This document shows, piece by piece, positions 12,470 to 22,155 of a DNA stretch of 39,247 nucleotides (positions are counted from its first letter, which is position 1; every line of letters starts with the position of its first letter). This DNA is from a virus. Where the stretch lies: the IMG/VR virus record IMGVR_UViG_3300037069_001452, positions 1-39,247 of that record; one strand, given 5' to 3'. A program made the translations under genes and the position numbers. The notes under the pieces were generated by a model that was given only the letters and a program-made list of their open reading frames with translations, had not been told where the DNA came from and made no database searches.

Positions 12470-12691
12470 TTATTTCAAAAACAATCTAATTAAATCTTTA
12501 ATATCAGAAATAGTTTTGCAGTTTGGCACTTCAATCCAGTAGTTATCTTGAATTTTAATCTCAATTGTTTCAACACCAGTAATTTCAATACTAAAATTTT
12601 CCTTTGTTAGTAAAAATTCGGTGTATCTGTGACCTTCTTCAGTATAAGAATTGTCTACAAATCCAAGGTTTAAGAGTTCTTTTTTATTCAT
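12470..12691 (-). CDS. Hypothetical protein, 73 residues
   Basis: Starts MNKKELLNLGFVDNSYTEEGHRYTEF, then alternating strands and a C-terminal helix SDIKDLIRLFLK. No assigned function. The start overlaps the methyltransferase stop by four bases. Confidence 0.75.
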   Translation of the reverse strand: MNKKELLNLGFVDNSYTEEGHRYTEFLLTKENFSIEITGVETIEIKIQDNYWIEVPNCKTISDIKDLIRLFLK

Positions 12692-13341
12692 AAGATTTCA
12701 ATAATTGAAGCTGGGGCTAGTTTTGCGCTTTCAATGATGTGCAGTCCTAGTCTTGGATGTACACAGTTTCGTAAAATCTGTACCGGACAATGGTTGCCAT
12801 CATAATATATATTTTCTTCATAATGAATACCTAACCAGTCCATCATTTGTTTTTTCTGTCCAACAGTTGCAAGATTCATCATTCCTTTTGGCGATTTAGG
12901 TATATCAATCATTTCAGGAATATCGAAATTTGACCAAAAAAGATGTCTTCCTAATTTCGTTGGATTTCCGTAAGGTTCATAATAAGGAACTACGTTTTCT
13001 ACAAACCATTTTCCTTTAAAATAAGTTTTTAAGAAAATAATTTCTTCAAACAATTTTCCGTCTACAAATCGAACCATATTATGCCTTGTCGCACGATTCA
13101 TTTTTGAATGAGTTTGGCAAGGGATTCCAGAAATAATAAAATCGTACTCCTGGTAATTTTCTAAAAGAAATTGATGTGCATCGGCAATTATTACTTTTTG
13201 ATTTGGTTTTCGTTCCTGTAGAACTTTTGCTATTTTTGGATTTAATTCTACGTGAGTTATTTCAAACTTATTTTCATCCAATAAATCAGTAGTTCCTCCA
13301 AGACCTGCGTACAAATGTAAAACACGTACTTTTTCGTTCAT
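12688..13341 (-). CDS. DNA (cytosine-5) methyltransferase, compact
   Basis: 217 residues. Motif I LHLYAGLGG (8-16) binds S-adenosylmethionine. Motif IV GIPCQ places the catalytic Cys at 75, and motif VI FVENVVP has Glu115. The canonical motif VIII QRRxR is not evident and the target-recognition region is short, so it is well under the usual 300-400 residues of stand-alone C5 enzymes. No restriction partner is nearby, so it is an orphan that probably protects phage DNA from host restriction. Starts at TAATG overlapping the membrane protein stop. Confidence 0.85.
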   Translation of the reverse strand: MNEKVRVLHLYAGLGGTTDLLDENKFEITHVELNPKIAKVLQERKPNQKVIIADAHQFLLENYQEYDFIISGIPCQTHSKMNRATRHNMVRFVDGKLFEEIIFLKTYFKGKWFVENVVPYYEPYGNPTKLGRHLFWSNFDIPEMIDIPKSPKGMMNLATVGQKKQMMDWLGIHYEENIYYDGNHCPVQILRNCVHPRLGLHIIESAKLAPASIIEIL

Positions 13342-13798: not shown

Positions 13799-14605
13799 TT
13801 ATATTGGCAAAGCCATTTTAGATAAAATATTTGTGCTTACGTGTGTATAAACTTCTGTCGTTTTACTACTTGCGTGGCCCAAATGTTTTTGAATGATTCT
13901 TAAATCTGTTCTTGCTTCCAATAATGCGGTGGCGTTTGAATGTCGTAGCAAATGAAAGTGAAACTCTTTACCGAGATACTTTTTTACGATTTCATTACAA
14001 CTTGTATGTGAATATTGTATATTATTTCCTTGACCATTGAACAAGTATTCTTTTGGTCGATATTCGGTAAAATAAACACTCAATATCTCTAAAATCTTGT
14101 CAGACAACCCCACGATCCTGTCTTTTCTTCCTTTACCTTGTCGAATGGTGATAATCATTCGCTTACTGTCAATATCAGCAATTTTCAAATTACAAACTTC
14201 ACTTACTCGCATTCCTGTTGAATAAGCCAAAGCAATAATGGCTTTATGCTTACTGTTGGCGATTTTTGAAATTGCATCCAATAAAAATTCCTTTTCAATG
14301 ATTTGCGGAAGTTTTCTTTCTGATCTTGGATATTCAATATGTTTGAATTTCAATGGTTGCTTTCCGGTAAGTTTATAAAACAATTTCACAGCAGATATTC
14401 GATGTTTCCTGCCATTAATTGAGTTTGCCAACATCAGCCAATTTTTAATTTGTTTTTCTGATATTTCAGAAGGTTTTGTCGCTACATTGTTGAAATACTC
14501 CAAAAACAATTTTACCTGACTAGAATAGTTAGAAATAGTATTTTCAGAATAGTTTTTCAGTCTTAAATCTTCGGAATACAATTCCACATACTTTCCGATA
14601 TTCAT
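13799..14605 (-). CDS. Tyrosine recombinase next to cassette array
   Basis: 268 residues. An N-terminal SAM-like core-binding domain (YVELYSEDLRLKNYSENTISNY) is followed by the catalytic domain with Arg133 (STGMRVSEV), Lys158 (GKGRKDR), His218-Arg221 (HLLRHS), His244 (LGHASS) and Tyr253 (VYTHVS). All catalytic residues are present. It is about 70 residues shorter than integron integrases and has no insertion between the Lys and HxxR motifs where IntI proteins carry their extra helix, so by sequence it is XerD/phage-integrase-like. It points away from the array and starts about 50 bases from the first cassette junction, the canonical intI position. It may move cassettes, integrate the phage, or both. 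Confidence 0.92.
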   Translation of the reverse strand: MNIGKYVELYSEDLRLKNYSENTISNYSSQVKLFLEYFNNVATKPSEISEKQIKNWLMLANSINGRKHRISAVKLFYKLTGKQPLKFKHIEYPRSERKLPQIIEKEFLLDAISKIANSKHKAIIALAYSTGMRVSEVCNLKIADIDSKRMIITIRQGKGRKDRIVGLSDKILEILSVYFTEYRPKEYLFNGQGNNIQYSHTSCNEIVKKYLGKEFHFHLLRHSNATALLEARTDLRIIQKHLGHASSKTTEVYTHVSTNILSKMALPI

Positions 14606-14667
14606 AGTCTTAGGTGTTAAGTTTGTTGGTGTTTACAGATGGTTTTTACATATAGGAGTTATCACTC
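14606..14667. other. attI- or attP-like site beside recombinase
   Basis: The gap between the recombinase start and the first cassette. It ends in G|TTATCACTC (G at 14658), the same box that opens cassette 2. No palindrome lies to its left, as expected of an attI rather than an attC. Two related stretches, TTTACAGATGG (14631-14641 region) and TTTACATATAGG (about 14645-14656), resemble the direct repeats that integrases bind in attI sites. It could equally be the phage attP. Confidence 0.5.
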
Positions 14668-14878
14668 ATTTTACAGAACGTTTACTGATAACGAGTTCAG
14701 ATTTACGAATAATGCAAATTTCATTTTCAAAAGGCGTTTCAAAATTCCATCTATCAAGAGTAAATTTTGATATTCCAATTTCGTGAGTATTACACAAAAT
14801 TGTCAAATCTCCGTAGTAAAAATGCTTTTCGTTTTCGATTGCGTTTTTAAATTCTATGTGATATAATTTTTTATTCAT
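14666..14878 (-). CDS. Cassette 1 hypothetical protein, 70 residues
   Basis: Starts MNKKLYHIEFKNAIENEKHFYYGDL; beta-rich, soluble. Ends ...ISKRSVK with its TGA inside the cassette's terminal box. The last three residues and stop (SVK) are shared with the last gene of cassette 2 because both cassettes begin with the same 22 bases. Overlaps the upstream gene by four bases. No known family. Confidence 0.75.
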   Translation of the reverse strand: MNKKLYHIEFKNAIENEKHFYYGDLTILCNTHEIGISKFTLDRWNFETPFENEICIIRKSELVISKRSVK

Positions 14879-15081
14879 TTGTTTTGTTTGTTATATTCTC
14901 TCAGGAAATCTAATACTGCTTTACATTTTTTATATTCTTTTTTCATTTTTTCTGCATCTTCAAGAGTTTTAGTATTTTTTCCTAAAAAAGCATTAGGATT
15001 TTCTAAATACCTCGGAATCATCATTGCTGAAAATTCAGATTGTTGCATTCTTTTTTCTATGAATTTTTCAAGTGATTCCAT
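14875..15081 (-). CDS. Cassette 1 hypothetical protein, 68 residues
   Basis: Starts MESLEKFIEKRMQQSEFSAMM; a helical, lysine-rich protein with the segment TLEDAEKMKKEYKKCKAVLDFL, likely a coiled coil. Middle gene of a three-gene cassette, overlapping the next by four bases and one base from the previous. Function unknown. Confidence 0.75.
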   Translation of the reverse strand: MESLEKFIEKRMQQSEFSAMMIPRYLENPNAFLGKNTKTLEDAEKMKKEYKKCKAVLDFLREYNKQNK

Positions 15082-15082
15082 A

Positions 15083-15466
15083 TTAAATACTTATTCTGTG
15101 AATTAAGTGAGCAAACTCATAAAAATGTTCCCAATTAGACGAATGATCTAATTTTCCGTATTTTTTAAAGAAATCATCTTTAGAATATCCTTTTTTAACG
15201 GCTTGTGTGTAGATTTTTACTTTTGCATATTCGCTTTTAGCTTCTGACATCAATAAATCAACATTTGAAATATTGTTTATTTTTACAACTTCTTTTTTAA
15301 TAGTTTCAGAAGTAATGCCAGTATTTTTAGTAGCACAAGTTGAACCGTAATAAAATTCATTCCCATCAATAGAAACACAATAAGTTCCTTTCAATCCTGT
15401 TTTACCACAACAATCACAATCTGTAACTTTATCTGTAAATCCTATTATTTTAATTTCTGTTGTCAT
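15083..15466 (-). CDS. Cassette 1 zinc-binding-like protein, 127 residues
   Basis: The N-terminal region VTDCDCCGKTGLKGTYCVSIDGNEFYYGSTCATK has CxC-C and later Cys residues arranged like a treble-clef or zinc ribbon, a type I recall from other phage small proteins. The C-terminal half is helical and charged. It is the first gene of cassette 1 and is preceded by a TATATTTG box. Function unknown. Confidence 0.8.
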   Translation of the reverse strand: MTTEIKIIGFTDKVTDCDCCGKTGLKGTYCVSIDGNEFYYGSTCATKNTGITSETIKKEVVKINNISNVDLLMSEAKSEYAKVKIYTQAVKKGYSKDDFFKKYGKLDHSSNWEHFYEFAHLIHRISI

Positions 15467-15493
15467 AACTTCTATTTGCTTATATTTCTTTTA

Positions 15494-15501
15494 CAAATAT
15501 A
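15494..15501 (-). promoter_or_regulatory. -7 promoter box in cassette 1
   Basis: Minus strand TATATTTG, full TAnnTTTG match, 27 bases before the ATG at 15466. No TTG at the usual -33 spacing. It would let cassette 1 express its three genes independently. Confidence 0.5.
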
Positions 15502-15574
15502 ATGATTAATATTTGTATAAACCTAATTTAATTACAAATATTATTAATAAAAATTGTAAATAAATAAAAAAACG

Positions 15575-15676
15575 AGTGATAACACGTGCTATGAGCAATA
15601 TTGCCAATAACGTTTAGTGCTAAACGACAACTTTTTTCTACGGCAATACTGCACATAGCACCATCCGTTATCACTC
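15575..15676. other. attC-like element 1
   Basis: Left box GAGTGATAAC then A; right box CG|TTATCACTC (G at 15667). Inner arms GTGCTATGAGCAATATTGCC and its near complement before the right box pair over about 20 bases with two mismatches. The right spacer (4 bases) is longer than the left (1 base). The loop contains a small inverted repeat CGTTTAG/CTAAACG. Confidence 0.8.
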
Positions 15677-15872
15677 ATTTTACAGAACCGCCTCGTTCAA
15701 GTTTACATTTAGAAATTCTATACTTTTCATTTTCGAATTCTAATTGTTTTTTTCGGCTGAAATGGTATTCTAAACTTTCATCTTTCAATAAAGGAAAGTT
15801 TTTTTCCATTACAGGCAAAGAACCAAAAAGTCTAAGCTTATTTAGTTCTTTGTCTAAAATAATAAATGGCAT
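15675..15872 (-). CDS. Cassette 2 hypothetical protein, 65 residues
   Basis: Starts MPFIILDKELNKLRLFGSLPVME; basic, with KQLEFENEKYRISKCKLERGGSVK at the end. The stop is inside the cassette terminal box. Start and upstream stop overlap by one base. No known family. Confidence 0.7.
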   Translation of the reverse strand: MPFIILDKELNKLRLFGSLPVMEKNFPLLKDESLEYHFSRKKQLEFENEKYRISKCKLERGGSVK

Positions 15873-16135
15873 TAAAATCTGTCTAAATGATAATCACAAC
15901 TAGAAAAATTTCCTTTGCTCCAAGCTTCTAAAAATAAAGAACGATGAGCATTATTTTTAAATTCATTTTCTAATTTTTCTCTTTGTGAATTTCTCCACTT
16001 GTAAACATCAATACTTGCTTGAATTCCACCTTTTTTTTGATATTCTTCTTCTAGCTTTTGTTCTTTAACATAAGCATCAAAAAGTATTTTTTTAGACTCT
16101 AATGCTATTGCTTCGTATTCTTCAAAATTTTTCAT
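15872..16135 (-). CDS. Cassette 2 hypothetical protein, 87 residues
   Basis: Starts MKNFEEYEAIALESKKILFDAYVKE; a long charged helix, likely coiled coil, ending SSCDYHLDRF. First gene of cassette 2, preceded by a well-formed promoter. The start context AATAGAAATTATG is nearly the same as at 19156 and 22688. Function unknown. Confidence 0.75.
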   Translation of the reverse strand: MKNFEEYEAIALESKKILFDAYVKEQKLEEEYQKKGGIQASIDVYKWRNSQREKLENEFKNNAHRSLFLEAWSKGNFSSCDYHLDRF

Positions 16136-16186
16136 AATTTCTATTTATTAAAGTTTGCCGTGTAACTCACTTCCTTAACTCTGATA

Positions 16187-16215
16187 CAAATATATAACTT
16201 ATTTTGTAATCGCAA
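16187..16215 (-). promoter_or_regulatory. Promoter of cassette 2
   Basis: Minus strand TTG (16215-16213), 18-base spacer, TATATTTG (16194-16187). Both halves match the Bacteroidetes -33/-7 promoter. It lies inside the cassette and drives its two genes. Confidence 0.65.
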
Positions 16216-16264
16216 GCTGTTTTTACAAAATATTTAAAATAAAACGTAAAATAAAAATAAAAAC

Positions 16265-16399
16265 GAGTGATAACAACAGCTTGTAGCAATTGCAATATTA
16301 GTTTGTACTTGAATTATCGGGTAAAATTTAAAAACTGTTTTGTGTTTGTAAAAATAGTCTTAAATTTTTGCAACTGCTACAAGCTGAAACGTTAGTGGC
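16265..16399. other. attC-like element 2
   Basis: Left box GAGTGATAAC, right box CG|TTAGTGGC (G at 16391). Inner arms AGCTTGTAGCAATTGCAA and TTGCAACTGCTACAAGCT pair with one mismatch. The boxes do not match each other beyond TAAC/GTTA; the left pairs with the start of cassette 2 and the right with the left box of element 3. Confidence 0.85.
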
Positions 16400-16406
16400 A
16401 ACCGCC

Positions 16407-16676
16407 CTAGATTCTTTCAAACAAATGGAAAACCCACATTCCATCTTGTAACTGAAAAGTGCCTATAAAGATTCTGCTTATTCCATCACAAGGAACCTCT
16501 TGGCCTGTTCCGAAAACTTCAATAACTTTTTCTTTCATTGGTGCTTTTGGATCTACTAATGCCCATATACAAGGCTTATTATTTTGAACTTGAACAGATA
16601 GTATTTCTGCACCTTTTGGCATTTCTATTGATAAATTATCAACTGATAATTCAAATTTCCATATTACTTTTTTCAT
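16407..16676 (-). CDS. Cassette 3: DUF7352 protein
   Basis: 89 residues from the ATG at 16676; an in-frame ATG at 16709 lies inside the attC and is not used. MKKVIWKFELSVDNLSIEMPKGAEILSVQVQNNKPCIWALVDP ... FIGTF ... FHLFE is the DUF7352 pattern seen in many phages and mobile elements. Function unknown. Only gene of its cassette, without its own promoter box. Confidence 0.85.
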   Translation of the reverse strand: MKKVIWKFELSVDNLSIEMPKGAEILSVQVQNNKPCIWALVDPKAPMKEKVIEVFGTGQEVPCDGISRIFIGTFQLQDGMWVFHLFERI

Positions 16677-16740
16677 AATTTCCTGTTTTACGTGGTATGC
16701 CACTAACAATCGCTACATTTCATCTTTTGCATTTGGCATT
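16669..16740. repeat. 72-bp direct repeat, copy A
   Basis: Identical to 19938-20009. It covers the start codon region of the cassette 3 gene, the leader and the left half of attC-like element 3. The match extends on both sides of the box, so it reflects a shared cassette end, not a single G|TT recombination. Confidence 0.9.
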
Positions 16741-16837
16741 AGGTTAATATTGTTTTGTATTTGTGATTATTTCGCTTATCAGAAGCACCTCGCTTTTTTA
16801 CCCCAAGCCGAAAGTGTAGCGATGGACGTTATACACA
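16699..16837. other. attC-like element 3
   Basis: Left box GCCACTAAC, right box CG|TTATACACA (G at 16828). Inner arms ATCGCTACATTTC and GAAAGTGTAGCGAT pair with one bulge. Its left half recurs at 19968-20009. Confidence 0.85.
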
Positions 16838-16838
16838 A

Positions 16839-17141
16839 TTATAATCTGTAGTCATAAGAAACTCTTTCGATTTGAATCAACCTCTCATAATTGATTTTCT
16901 TTTTCCTTAGAAAGAATCTTAATTGGTATATTATTCTGTGTGCTTTTTCTAGCGATTCTTCACTATCTTCGACTTTGAAATCTTGTGTCAATGGTTCGCT
17001 ATTTGATTTCCATTCTCCTTCGTGTAAATCAATTGAAAAATTATTTATGTGTCCTGCATAATTTGTAAAACAATGATGACCAAGTTCGGTACATTGCATT
17101 GCTAAAAACTGTATTTCTAATATTTTACTTTTAATTTTCAT
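16839..17141 (-). CDS. Cassette 4 hypothetical protein, 100 residues
   Basis: Starts MKIKSKILEIQFLAMQCTELGHHCFTNYAGHINNF, with Cys/His residues in a short span, then acidic LTQDFKVEDSEESLEKAHRIIYQLRFFLRKKKINYERL. Soluble. The stop is two bases from the attC box. No assigned family or promoter. Confidence 0.75.
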   Translation of the reverse strand: MKIKSKILEIQFLAMQCTELGHHCFTNYAGHINNFSIDLHEGEWKSNSEPLTQDFKVEDSEESLEKAHRIIYQLRFFLRKKKINYERLIQIERVSYDYRL

Positions 17142-17150
17142 AAGAATAAC

Positions 17151-17289
17151 TGTGTATAACAGTGGTTTTGCTCAATGGCTGGATTTGGCAAAATTTAAAC
17201 ACTGTCTTTTGTTTGTAAAAATTGTTTTTTTAATCAATAATTTAGGCTTACTTTTCAGCCACTAAGCAAAGCCACGAAACGTTAGGAGC
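17151..17289. other. attC-like element 4
   Basis: Left box TGTGTATAAC, right box CG|TTAGGAGC (G at 17281). Inner arms GTGGTTTTGCT and AGCAAAGCCAC pair, then ATGGCTG with CAGCCACT further in. Left spacer 1 base, right spacer 5. Confidence 0.85.
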
Positions 17290-17295
17290 AACCGC

Positions 17296-17607
17296 CTATG
17301 ATGGTAGATTATTAGGCTTAATTATTTGTTGATAATGCGTAACTCCATCGTAAATATTTCCGTTAAATGTTTTAAATGTTTTTTGAATTTTGCAAAACCT
17401 GCCTAAGCCAGTTTCTCCATCTCCAAATAAGAAAAATAAACCATCACTTTCTGGTAAATCTTTTTCACTTTCAATTTTCACCCAATCTTTTTTTAAAACA
17501 TCCTTTACATATCCTTCTATTAAGTCGGATATAATATCAGTAGTTCCAATTTCCATAAAATCTCTATCGGAAACATTTGTACTTTTTAACCATTCTTTTG
17601 GTGTCAT
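17296..17607 (-). CDS. Cassette 5: DUF551-domain protein
   Basis: 103 residues. WVKIESEKDLPESDGLFFLFGDGETGLGRF ... VTHYQQIIKP is the DUF551 pattern, similar to the core protein at 7531-7917. The N-terminus MTPKEWLKSTNVSDRDFMEIG differs. Function unknown. The start lies 46 bases from the cassette box; no promoter seen. Confidence 0.8.
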   Translation of the reverse strand: MTPKEWLKSTNVSDRDFMEIGTTDIISDLIEGYVKDVLKKDWVKIESEKDLPESDGLFFLFGDGETGLGRFCKIQKTFKTFNGNIYDGVTHYQQIIKPNNLPS

Positions 17608-17644
17608 AATTTTTAATTTTTAAATTAATATTCGTTCGTGGTAT

Positions 17645-17773
17645 GCTCCTAACACTCGTTTGGCAATAGAGCAAGCTTTAGTGGAATTACCGTTTTTTAA
17701 TAATAAATTTCTGCAAAACCGAAACTTTACGTTTCTTAATTTTGCTCCATCGCCAAGCGATAGAACGTTATCG
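17645..17773. other. attC-like element 5
   Basis: Left box GCTCCTAAC, right box CG|TTATCG (G at 17767). Inner arms TTTGGCAATAGAGCAA and TTGCTCCATCGCCAAG pair with mismatches. The stop codon of the cassette 6 gene lies against the right box. Confidence 0.8.
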
Positions 17774-18097
17774 TTAAGCTTGGTTGGAGTCCTTAACGTG
17801 AGAATATGAATTATCACTGTTTTTAGTCCATTTTCTGTTTTCATTAATAGTTAATTTTTTCTCAAATGCTTCAAATATTTCTTCAACAGTAATTGGATTT
17901 TCTTGTCTTCCTGCGCTATCAAAAAGACACATTAAGGCATCCGCATATTCTTCGGGTCTTCTAACTTTGTTTTCAATATCTGATTCTATTTCTTTAATTT
18001 CAGATTCACATTTTCTTAAAGAGGAAATTGATGTAGCTTCTTTAAAAGTGATTTTAGACCATTTCAAACGTCTGTTTTCTAATTCTATAATATTCAT
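17774..18097 (-). CDS. Cassette 6: DUF550, MazG-like pyrophosphohydrolase
   Basis: 107 residues from the ATG at 18097; a longer in-frame start at 18244 would read through the attC. LKWSKITFKEATSISSLRKCESEIKEIESDI ... PEEYADALMCLFDSAGR ... INENRKW is the DUF550 pattern. The metal-binding arrangement E33xxE36 then E50xxD53 is that of MazG-type NTP pyrophosphohydrolases. Such enzymes in phages can hydrolyse non-canonical nucleotides or alter alarmone levels; which applies here is unknown. The C-terminus SHVKDSNQA ends against the attC box. Confidence 0.8.
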   Translation of the reverse strand: MNIIELENRRLKWSKITFKEATSISSLRKCESEIKEIESDIENKVRRPEEYADALMCLFDSAGRQENPITVEEIFEAFEKKLTINENRKWTKNSDNSYSHVKDSNQA

Positions 18098-18123
18098 AAT
18101 AGTTGGTGTTAAAAAAGCCGAAA

Positions 18124-18260
18124 CGATAACAATTTCTTTGCGATGATTTTCGGCTTGGTTTATAAATTTATTGTTGGTTGTGTGTTTGTGATTATTGGTG
18201 TTTATCCGAAGCTTGGTTTTGTGCAACTCCGAAAAACCTCGCAAAGAATCAACGTTACCT
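18124..18260. other. attC-like element 6
   Basis: Left box CGATAAC, right box CG|TTACCTG (G at 18254). Inner arms ATTTCTTTGCGA and TCGCAAAGAAT, then ATTTTCGG with CCGAAAAA, pair with small bulges. Confidence 0.85.
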
Positions 18261-18261
18261 G

Positions 18262-18432
18262 CTATTTATCCTCAACTTTGTAGATAATCGAGTCTTTGTA
18301 GGTTATTGGAAATTTTAAGCTTTTTAACGAATGATAAGGTAATTCGAATTCCAAGCATAGTTTTTTAAAATTACCCCTTGCAATCGGCTCTTTATCGGGT
18401 CGTATTAGGATGATTATTGATTTTCTTTGCAT
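18262..18432 (-). CDS. Cassette 7 small protein, 56 residues
   Basis: The ATG is at 18430-18432 and the TAG at 18262-18264, adjacent to the attC box. The product MQRKSIIILIRPDKEPIARGN... is basic and beta-rich with GNFKKLCLEFELPYHSLKS, reminiscent of a small DNA-binding fold. No family assigned. Last of four genes in this cassette. Confidence 0.75.
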   Translation of the reverse strand: MQRKSIIILIRPDKEPIARGNFKKLCLEFELPYHSLKSLKFPITYKDSIIYKVEDK

Positions 18433-18456
18433 TGCTTTAATTTAAAAAATTGTTAT

Positions 18457-18696
18457 TTAGTCTTTTATCCATTTTTTTATTACAAAATCAGTATTTATTT
18501 CTTTTGGACTTATTTTTTTTAAATTAGCTATAATAGATTCCTTTGATTCAGGATTAATATAACATCCTTTTTCTTCGTCATATTCTAAATCCAACATTTC
18601 AGCAATTTCAATTATCTTGTCCGGATTAGGATTTGATATGTTTAATTTTTCAAAAGCTAAGTCGAATATTTGTTCTTCTGTTAAATACATATTCAT
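18457..18696 (-). CDS. Cassette 7 hypothetical protein, 79 residues
   Basis: Starts MNMYLTEEQIFDLAFEKLNISNPNPDKIIE; acidic and helical, no membrane segment. Small intergenic gaps on both sides. Unknown function. Confidence 0.7.
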   Translation of the reverse strand: MNMYLTEEQIFDLAFEKLNISNPNPDKIIEIAEMLDLEYDEEKGCYINPESKESIIANLKKISPKEINTDFVIKKWIKD

Positions 18697-18707
18697 AATT
18701 TAGTTTT

Positions 18708-18965
18708 TTATGGTAATTGATTTTGATTTCTTGCAAATTTAGGTCTCATAAAATATAATAAAACCTGTTGCCAATACAACCATTGCTCACTATCATTTTC
18801 CCACTTTTTAAGAAGTAATCTTAATAAAGACCCTGTAGAATGTATTCTATCTGATTCCTTAAATTTTAAAAGTAGGCTTTCAGTAACGAAACTTTCAAAC
18901 TCAGAAGTAAACTTTTCTTTTAAGTTTACTTCTTCTAATTCTTGCAATATTATTTCATATGTCAT
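18708..18965 (-). CDS. Cassette 7 hypothetical protein, 85 residues
   Basis: Starts MTYEIILQELEEVNLKEKFTSEF; helical, with a tryptophan-rich stretch LLKKWENDSEQWLYWQQVLLYF. The start codon overlaps the preceding stop by one base (TAATG). Unknown function. Confidence 0.75.
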   Translation of the reverse strand: MTYEIILQELEEVNLKEKFTSEFESFVTESLLLKFKESDRIHSTGSLLRLLLKKWENDSEQWLYWQQVLLYFMRPKFARNQNQLP

Positions 18966-19156
18966 TAGAATACGTTTTTAATGTGGTTTTCTAAGAATGA
19001 TATTTCTATTTTGTAGTCAGAATTTAATTTTAAAAATTCTTTTACTTCAAAATCTTCCATTTCGTCAATTCTATAAAGTAAGCAATCGTTAGCATAATTT
19101 AATTGACCTTTCAAGCTTGCTAATTCTTCTCTTTTAATCATTTCTACGTGTGACAT
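18965..19156 (-). CDS. Cassette 7 hypothetical protein, 63 residues
   Basis: Starts MSHVEMIKREELASLKGQLNYAND; helical, acidic. First gene of the four-gene cassette 7, behind a promoter. Unknown function. Confidence 0.75.
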   Translation of the reverse strand: MSHVEMIKREELASLKGQLNYANDCLLYRIDEMEDFEVKEFLKLNSDYKIEISFLENHIKNVF

Positions 19157-19195
19157 AATTTCTATTTTTTAGTGTTATTGTTTTTAATTCTGATG

Positions 19196-19225
19196 TAAAG
19201 ATAATCAATATATTTACATAAACAA
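19196..19225 (-). promoter_or_regulatory. Promoter of cassette 7
   Basis: Minus strand TTG (19225-19223), 19-base spacer, TATCTTTA (19203-19196): one mismatch to TAnnTTTG. It lies inside cassette 7, 39 bases before its first ATG. Confidence 0.5.
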
Positions 19226-19271
19226 GTCTTTTTTAGAAAAATATTAAAAATAATTACAAAAAAAATAAACA

Positions 19272-19404
19272 GCAGGTAACAATTGCTATAAAACAGTTGG
19301 GCATTGTGATTAATTTAAACATTTGGACTATCCGAATGATTGGATCTTGGCTCGAAGTTTTGGGAATCTCTGCCCCAACCGTCTTATAGCAAAAACGTTA
19401 TAGG
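19272..19404. other. attC-like element 7
   Basis: Left box GCAGGTAAC, right box CG|TTATAGG (G at 19397). Inner arms ATTGCTATAA and TTATAGCAA, then GTTGGGCA with TGCCCCAAC, pair with small loops. The outline (TAACAATT ... CGTTA) is the closest here to classical attC sites. Confidence 0.85.
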
Positions 19405-19640
19405 TTATTTAAAAAACCGATAACACTTTCATCTTTTATTTCAGAAATTAATCCAAAAGTTACTGTTTGTGTTTTAATATAGTTTTCTATTTCTTCATCA
19501 GGAATATCAAAATCGTGAAAATTTCCAAAAGGAGAATCACATCCACAATAAAAGCATTTTAATGTATTTACAAATGGAGTTACTTTTCCACATTCGTCAC
19601 AATATTCAAATATTGCTGAAAAAGATAAACAACCTATAAC
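19398..19640 (-). pseudogene. Cassette 8 zinc-ribbon gene lacking a start codon
   Basis: An open frame of about 75 codons from the cassette edge reads ...LSFSAIFEYCDECGKVTPFVNTLKCFYCGCDSPFGNF and ends FLNNL with the TAA inside the attC box. CxxC pairs suggest a zinc ribbon. No ATG, GTG or TTG lies in frame between the upstream stop (in element 8) and the first Cys pair, so it either lost its 5' end at the cassette junction or starts at a rare codon such as ATA. Unknown function. Confidence 0.6.
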
Positions 19641-19771
19641 AGTGGTTTTGCGAGATTTTCGGCACTTGGTTTAATTTATTGTTTAGTTTGTATCTGTTGT
19701 TTTTTGGGCTTATCTGAAAGATTACGCATCCTTAACCGAAAATCCTCGCAAAGCCACAATACGTTATCAGC
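19632..19771. other. attC-like element 8
   Basis: Left box AACCTATAAC, right box CG|TTATCAGC (G at 19763). Inner arms GTGGTTTTGCGAGATTTTCGG and CCGAAAATCCTCGCAAAGCCAC pair over about 20 bases with one extra base in the right arm, like the extrahelical bases that set attC strand choice. Its right box does not match the left box of element 9. Confidence 0.85.
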
Positions 19772-19782
19772 AACCGCCAGTA

Positions 19783-19945
19783 TTAGTCATTAACTTCGTA
19801 TTCTAAATCTGCAAAAGCGAAACCTATTGCATCTGCTGTTTCGTCTATTTGTTCATTGTCTCCTTTTACTTTTTCAAGAATGTCAATTGCTTCTTGAAGT
19901 TTAATCATTGCCTGTTTTACAGCATTTTTTTGTTGTGTTTTTCAT
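19783..19945 (-). pseudogene. Cassette 9 small gene with frame break
   Basis: The ATG at 19943-19945 is followed by a run of seven A residues after which the frame ends. With six A residues it would read a 53-residue protein (MKNTTKNAVKQAMIKLQEA...) ending DLEYEVND at 19783. An intact shorter version starts at the ATG at 19908 (41 residues). Either a sequencing/assembly error, a real frameshift or slippage-tolerant expression. Acidic helical product, unknown function. Confidence 0.55.
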
Positions 19946-20009
19946 AATTTCCTGTTTTACGTGGTATGCCACTAACAATCGCTACATTTCATCTTTTGCA
20001 TTTGGCATT
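19938..20009. repeat. 72-bp direct repeat, copy B, with half attC
   Basis: Identical to 16669-16740. It includes the left half of element 3 (box GCCACTAAC at 19968-19976 and the inner arm to 20009) but the matching right arm is absent downstream. It marks the truncated right edge of the array. Confidence 0.9.
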
Positions 20010-20013
20010 GTGA

Positions 20014-21444: not shown

Positions 21445-22155
21445 TTAAAATTTTAGTTTATTTAATTCAATTTCTATTTCATTTTTTAATAAATCAGCGT
21501 TAAATTTCGCTAATTCAACCCATTCCCTAATTGTTCTAAAATCGGTAACAGTTTCGGTCTTTGGTTTTATTTCTTTACCACCAACACCGTATTGCTTTAT
21601 TTCTACTTTTTTCTTTACACCTAAATCAATAACGCTATCTAAAGTCAATTCTTTTACAAAAATAGGCTTATAAATATTTTCTGGTCGGTAACTACAAAAA
21701 TAATGTTTTTGCAGTTTAGGATTAACTGTAAAATAATGCAAACATTGATGTATATTGTCAGCAGGAATTTCTCCAGAACGTACCGTTTTTAAATGCTTTT
21801 TTGACGCAGGACATTTAATTTCTGCGCTTATTGTTTCATCTTCTGTTATACCGTCGGGTGAAATCCCTATGTATTCATTTTCCTCTGATTGAAGCCATCC
21901 GCATTCTAGTAATTCAATTCCTAAATAAGCATTTAATGATTTACGTGCTTCTGGCTCTAATTCGTTTCCACGAACCATGTCAAAAGATTGGTAACTTTCC
22001 TGTAAATCAAAATCTTCTACAAGTTCAGAAAGAACATCTTCTAAAAGGGTGTCTGATTTAATAAACAATCCTTTAGACAAAGTACCGCCTACTTTTCCAT
22101 AGCGTATTTTGTGCCATTCCTCTGAACCTTGTTCAATTTCGTAGTGTGCTATCAT
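21445..22155 (-). CDS. YqaJ/lambda-exonuclease-type recombinase
   Basis: 236 residues. Degrades 5' ends to make 3' single strands for annealing. QGSEEWHKIRYGKVGGT near the N-terminus, GNELEPEAR (63-71), GISPDG with Asp101, and AEIKC with Glu112 and Lys114, then Gln137: the PD-(D/E)xK-type active site. Start and the preceding stop share one base (22155). Intact by length. Confidence 0.9.
   Translation of the reverse strand: MIAHYEIEQGSEEWHKIRYGKVGGTLSKGLFIKSDTLLEDVLSELVEDFDLQESYQSFDMVRGNELEPEARKSLNAYLGIELLECGWLQSEENEYIGISPDGITEDETISAEIKCPASKKHLKTVRSGEIPADNIHQCLHYFTVNPKLQKHYFCSYRPENIYKPIFVKELTLDSVIDLGVKKKVEIKQYGVGGKEIKPKTETVTDFRTIREWVELAKFNADLLKNEIEIELNKLKF

Follow-up and report, generated by a model that had tools for sequence, protein, structure and literature searches.

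The phage elements of Qi et al. (2023) are either captured integrons with the integrase IntI or arrays without an integrase (PMC9892861); P12002L, treated in that study, has no annotated integrase, and our hairpin scanner found no site in it. In Bacteroidetes proper, IntegronFinder 2.0 names one complete integron, that of Salinibacter ruber (PMC9024848). The ten cultured phages Freya_1 to Freya_10 (44.0–48.9 kb), which share one Polaribacter host, carry an integrase that was described as a potential for a temperate lifestyle (PMC8776804). In the openly licensed literature (preprints not included) we found no description of a recombinase that is native to phages and accompanied by an attI of its own and inverted cassettes. 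Here we analyze the 39,247-base IMG/VR virus record IMGVR_UViG_3300037069_001452 (the whole of this stretch is called the window), in which an array of eight gene cassettes, an attI site and the gene of a tyrosine recombinase lie side by side. This locus is very probably a phage-borne integron, namely, a system of site-specific gene capture served by its own recombinase in a lineage of Bacteroidota phages. The original prediction implied a bacterial chromosome as the carrier of the array; however, the window encodes a terminase large subunit, a major head protein and a primase/helicase, and the carrier is a phage of Bacteroidota. A terminase was also present in eight of the 21 related viral records, including those of 246, 310 and 362 kb.

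Each of the eight units opens with a GTT box that is the reverse complement, over 9–10 bases, of the TAAC box in its own hairpin, as predicted for the start of each cassette and the left box of its own attC site. The pair of unit 1 is GTTATCACTC/GAGTGATAAC (14658/15574), and the same pair is repeated in unit 2 (15667/16265); those of units 3 to 8 are GTTAGTGGCA/TGCCACTAAC, GTTATACACA/TGTGTATAAC, GTTAGGAGCA/TGCTCCTAAC, GTTATCGTT/AACGATAAC, GTTACCTGCT/AGCAGGTAAC and GTTATAGGTT/AACCTATAAC, respectively. The two boxes inside one element were said to agree only in the TAAC core, and in general they do have only GTTA/TAAC in common, with the exception of element 1, whose boxes are identical. The cassettes were also said to carry their own TTRRRY end: the chain confirms that each has an end box of its own, but the consensus of this box is GTTA followed by five free bases (GTTA-N5), and GTTRRRY is fitted by 16 of 251 boxes. 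Chance is a poor account of the chain, as a complete match of the eight boxes was reached by two of the 40,320 possible pairings (equivalent ones, as boxes 1 and 2 do not differ), and the expectation for a match at all five variable bases is 0.2% per pair. The rule also extends to homologous arrays: at fixed offsets, 187 of 257 cassettes from this and related phages showed an exact five-base match at the predicted step, whereas every other offset tested gave two to four exact matches among 101–257 pairs (about 1–3%). At the ninth step the chain fails (GTTATCAGC at 19763 versus GCCACTAAC at 19973), a failure explained by the final attC, which is truncated and copies the left half of attC3; this broken unit 9 (19764–20010, minus strand) contains the left half of an attC with the box TGCCACTAAC at 19967. 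The distal end of the array (19764–20010) resembles a scar of deletion or recombination.

The attI site (14644–14667, plus strand) reads TTTTACATATAGGAG|TTATCACTC, with the junction between 14658 and 14659, approximately 52 bp from the start of the recombinase. The eight hairpin elements, located on the plus strand by a hairpin scan, measure 101–141 bases from the TAAC box to the GTTA box, and most have a stem of approximately 20 bp with a variable middle. At a score of 30, the scan picked out these eight sites and no others across the window, and Markov shuffles gave zero to two per 39 kb; the scanner presumes TAAC and GTTA, and divergent sites are thus undercounted. All cassettes bounded by the chain were assigned to the minus strand. 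Cassette 1 (14659–15667) holds the open reading frames (ORFs) 14666–14878, 14875–15081 and 15083–15466, with attC1 at 15574–15676 (scan score 44; bottom-strand fold -24.0 kcal/mol), and cassette 2 (15668–16391) holds ORFs 15675–15872 and 15872–16135, with attC2 at 16265–16400. Single ORFs occupy cassette 3 (16392–16828; ORF 16407–16709, DUF7352, 2e-25; attC3 at 16698–16837), cassette 4 (16829–17281; ORF 16839–17141, no family match; attC4 at 17151–17290), cassette 5 (17282–17767; ORF 17296–17607, no family match; attC5 at 17644–17776) and cassette 6 (17768–18254; attC6 at 18121–18263), whose ORF 17774–18097 belongs to the dATP/dGTP pyrophosphohydrolase family (3e-9 with the longer TTG frame 17774–18244). 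Cassette 7 (18255–19397; attC7 at 19271–19406) contains ORFs 18457–18696, 18708–18965 and 18965–19156, and cassette 8 (19398–19763; attC8 at 19631–19772) contains a 90-codon open frame (19398–19670) without an ATG start. This last frame, on the minus strand, encodes CxxC-type cysteines (CDECGK...CFYCGC), and it may use another start codon or be a remnant.

A recombinase search of viral contigs gave 80 related loci, and an alignment-based second search gave 24 more. Sequence upstream of the recombinase extended for 1 kb or more in 81 viral loci; 76 of them have at least one attC-like site in that region, and 55 have at least one chained pair. The density of attC-like sites was 0.50 per kb upstream of the recombinase versus 0.014 per kb on the other side, and no such site was found in 205 kb of shuffled sequence. 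The biggest arrays among the relatives have 15–16 sites. In most loci the attI motif (T)ACATATA(G/A)TAG|TTA is kept approximately 52 bp from the start codon, and beyond its GTTA the sequences of the relatives diverge. Recombinase, attI and array occur together across a family of 43–93% amino-acid identity, in phages of up to 362 kb. Three viral loci with isolate-like IMG numbers (L200, L194 and L202) combine recombinase and attI with a small number of attC sites or none, and could be cassette-poor prophages with cultured hosts.

The stems of 251 chained phage attC sites are asymmetric between the strands: their non-Watson-Crick positions are G-T pairs 573 times on the bottom strand versus 198 times on the top; site by site, the bottom strand is favored in 192 and the top in 12. 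At the stem position 15 bases after the left TAAC, 231 of 249 sites have an A facing a C on the top strand, which corresponds to G-T on the bottom strand, and a T occupies position +7 in 243 of 251. Extrahelical bases were also considered as a mark of polarity and were rejected, as extra bases occur on both arms with no clear rule; the fixed A.C/G-T position is clear instead. The bottom strand of attC is the substrate in integrons (PMC8946536), and by analogy the wobble bias fits a phage attC whose bottom strand, the minus strand of the window, would fold and recombine.

The polarity of the genes is also one-sided. Between the hairpins of the window, the main ORFs lie on the minus strand and are directed to the recombinase, and the larger listed genes of the window are also located on this strand. 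In 150 chained phage cassettes the longest ORF is directed to attI and in two it is directed away, whereas in chromosomal arrays of Bacteroidota (and one of Ignavibacteria) 32 ORFs point away from attI and one towards it. The anatomy of attC and its polarity relative to attI are the same in the chromosomal arrays and the phages, and therefore it is the gene, not the site, that is turned round in the phages. The boxes look the same on both strands, and a reading of the array from the opposite side was considered for this reason; it is ruled out by the conserved attI and by the chromosomal attC polarity combined with reversed genes. Expression of the phage cassettes probably depends on a transcript that traverses the array and enters the recombinase gene, and not on an outward Pc promoter.

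The cassettes are also shared and exchanged as whole units. A 385-bp cassette is 100% identical between two viral loci, adjacent to attI in one (L023) and in the middle of the array in the other (L052); the left flanks are unrelated, and the identity starts and stops at the GTT boxes. A 93% identical copy of cassette 1 of the window lies 1.9 kb farther from attI in another locus (L005), whose recombinase and attI region has 88% DNA identity to that of the window. Between phages and chromosomal arrays, the comparison of cassettes gave weak local similarity only. In the Freya phages, the region upstream of the recombinase was compared in seven isolates (Freya_1, 2, 5, 6, 8, 9 and 10), all of which have in common 106 bases that end in ...GGGGTG, and switch from there, precisely at GTT, to differing block boundaries. 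Freya_8 is exceptional in that one inner block is absent, and Freya_6 has one additional block; otherwise the seven are identical across the compared stretch, so that they differ by gain or loss of whole blocks, joined at ...GGGGTG|TT or at another block boundary. Loci L213–L216 and L219–L228 of our collection are these co-isolated phages, which differ by whole blocks at the GTT beside the integrase. As judged from the junctions in the sequence data, the cassettes move as whole units, with GTT as the point of cutting.

The recombinase (13799–14605, minus strand; 268 amino acids) matches the Pfam family Phage_integrase (9e-37) and is without the additional domain of IntI. Residues R133, K158, H218, R221, H244 and Y253, which from knowledge of the family we take to be the catalytic set, are invariant in 23 relatives. 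The integron integrase model TIGR02249 scored 136 bits, below its cut-off of 265, and the Xer models were also below their cut-offs (XerA, 185 versus 220; XerC, 159 versus 335; XerD, 156 versus 330). The spacing from KGRKDR to HxLRH is 48–50 residues in the phages and 53–54 in their chromosomal relatives, versus 57–61 in Xer proteins and 94–95 in IntI1 and the Shewanella IntI. The enzymes of all 21 viral records examined match the IntI profile in two pieces that skip approximately positions 180–250 (two of them reach 205–207), and none passes the cut-off; nor was a canonical IntI above the cut-off found elsewhere in these records. An AlphaFold model (predicted local distance difference test, pLDDT, 88.7) had XerA as its nearest match by E-value, followed by the Vibrio integron integrase IntI4 (2a3v). 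In the phylogenetic tree, the phage and Bacteroidota enzymes group together with weak support (0.76), and IntI is nearer to them than to the included Xer proteins of the E. coli and Flavobacterium types (0.97); the tree holds two IntI and five Xer proteins only, and it cannot tell loss of the domain from a domain never gained.

Three other explanations have to be weighed. Terminators, miniature inverted-repeat transposable elements (MITEs) or recombination hot spots could have produced the hairpins, and the differences among cassettes could reflect homologous mosaicism, seeing that stem-loops between short operons can terminate transcription and that phage genomes are mosaic. The box chain is predicted by neither the hairpin types nor mosaicism, however, and the conserved attI and the wobble bias of the bottom strand are likewise left unexplained, as is an identity that stops exactly at GTT next to unrelated left flanks. 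The probability of this explanation is negligible, and terminators, MITEs and chance hairpins as such are ruled out by the offset test, the exact junctions and the rare or absent hits in shuffled sequence, in agreement with the original prediction that the pattern fails for such elements. That the phage has captured a standard bacterial integron, with IntI and attC cassettes, has a precedent in Vibrio and Shewanella phages (PMC9892861), and the attC hairpins and their chain are of the integron kind. Yet this recombinase has no additional domain and is placed outside the IntI branch, its relatives match the IntI model in the fragmented manner given above, the genes have the opposite polarity, and the pairing of recombinase, attI and array persists through the entire range of identity and genome size of the family; such a capture is therefore highly improbable. 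The reading of the original prediction, mobile cassettes with an end box of their own, stands, but neither the recombinase nor the gene polarity is that of a standard integron.

It is also conceivable, though improbable, that the recombinase is a lysogeny integrase only, and that passive cassettes are moved in trans by an integron of the host, as in clusters of attC sites lacking integron integrases (CALIN), their adjacency being a coincidence. Annotations usually present phage integrases of this type as lysogeny enzymes, as in Freya (PMC8776804), and Bacteroidota chromosomes do contain integrons whose attC sites have the same anatomy and which could supply the activity in trans. However, the arrays lie directly upstream of the recombinase, with attI at its constant distance in most relatives, it is precisely at the site beside the recombinase that the Freya isolates vary, and the polarity of the cassette genes is unlike that of host arrays. 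A second role of the enzyme in lysogeny would be compatible with this evidence.

Several points weigh against a phage-borne integron. The additional domain of IntI is held to be essential for integron recombination (PMC9668308, PMC8138268), and the recombinase here is without it; we infer from sequence that this enzyme would act on attI and attC. One metagenome (3300020045) contributed many of the loci and contigs, whose independence is therefore incomplete. Because every junction contains GTT, the base at which crossover takes place is masked. The Freya phages, as a putative living example, rest on the junctions, the nearby site and the kinship of the recombinase; they are related but more distant, with a recombinase approximately 34% identical to that of the window, from another part of the same broad clade, and two weak attC-like hairpins at a relaxed threshold. 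A phage-borne integron nevertheless remains the explanation that we favor. As to its origin, we lean, by a small degree, to the view that attC recombination evolved or persists in a branch without the additional domain, which this branch either never had or has lost, and that these arrays form a native gene-exchange platform of Bacteroidota phages, of reversed polarity, with a large accessory pool that includes counters to host defence and is shared among phage lineages from approximately 40 kb to jumbo size.

In such a phage-borne integron, the short tyrosine recombinase would join the GTT of attI to the attC GTT of a circular cassette. Each cassette would retain its TTA-N5 end, which is complementary to its own hairpin, and would therefore give rise to the box chain. 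The bottom strand of attC would fold and serve as the recombining substrate, as suggested by the analogy with integrons and by the strand asymmetry of the stem. New cassettes would be inserted beside attI, with which the L005 and Freya comparisons are consistent. The cassette genes, codirectional with the recombinase and the minus-strand genes of the phage, would be carried on a phage transcript into the recombinase gene. The array would be a store of small accessory genes, including DNA-modification enzymes, exchanged among related phages. Catalysis by the recombinase, a single-stranded substrate and a benefit to the phage are steps that we infer.

Most of the 144 cassette proteins scanned had no family match. 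The recognized cargo consists mostly of DNA-modification enzymes: six N6/N4, two C5 and one D12 DNA methylases were found, in addition to one Mom, one Acb2/Tad1 hairpin domain, three YopX and two DUF7352 proteins. In the window, the recognized cassette proteins are the DUF7352 protein and the dATP/dGTP pyrophosphohydrolase. The Acb2/Tad1 cassette is known only as present among the 144; a whole-record search did not locate it, and ten candidates did not contain it. For part of the cargo, DNA modification as protection from host restriction is a plausible use. Outside the array, on the opposite side of the recombinase, an ORF resembling a C5 cytosine DNA methylase lies at 12688–13341 (minus strand). 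A YqaJ-like viral recombinase domain of the exonuclease family is encoded at 21445–22155 (minus strand), adjoined by a DUF3127 protein, and neither known RNA families nor tRNAs, both of which were looked for, were found in the window.

The additional domain is treated both as a requirement of integrons and as a marker in searches for them, and a family that has all the other parts makes this requirement directly testable. Because the domain is lacking, surveys based on profiles would miss this family, and the chromosomal domain-less arrays would likewise escape IntI-based surveys. With this system, phages would possess a dedicated, site-specific means of trading small genes, and some of these genes resemble anti-restriction DNA modification; as most cassette proteins have no family match, the arrays are a place to seek novel counter-defence genes. 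With the Freya isolates, a phage is available in culture together with its host, and gain and loss of cassettes could be followed in them.

In comparison with bacterial integrons (IntI/attI/attC; class 1 and the Vibrio superintegron), the phage locus has the same attI beside a tyrosine recombinase, the same array of small cassettes, each closed by an imperfect hairpin that has R and L arms, the GTT junction, the box chain and a strand bias that would favor folding of the bottom strand. It differs in the lack of the IntI additional domain, in having GTTA-N5 instead of GTTRRRY, in genes that point towards attI, and in forming, within phages, a lineage of its own. The elements of Qi et al. (PMC9892861) are similar in that attC cassettes occur in phages, some with DNA methyltransferase genes and one in a Polaribacter phage, whereas here the array is accompanied by its own recombinase across dozens of viral genomes. 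The Xer proteins (XerA, XerC and XerD) are also short tyrosine recombinases without the additional domain, and XerA is among the best matches in sequence and fold; the phage enzyme, however, is placed nearer to IntI in the tree and is associated with attI and attC arrays. The Freya phages (PMC8776804) have a short related integrase, a nearby GTT site and whole-cassette differences among co-isolates, but are different in their distant recombinase, in GTTG/GTTA boxes and in attC hairpins that mostly fall below the threshold of the scanner. Chromosomal arrays with domain-less recombinases were found in nine loci (L131, L157, L155, L141, L154, L149, L144, L092 and L108) of Flavobacterium, Pelobium and others, including one Ignavibacteria. 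Their attC sites have the anatomy of the phage sites (TAACA...T+7, A.C at position 15, CGTTA), and their recombinases, which are related to those of the phages, also lack the additional domain. In these arrays, however, the array lies downstream of the recombinase, attI is mostly approximately 100 bp past the stop codon, most of the array-bearing recombinases are extended at the N-terminus, and the genes point away from attI.

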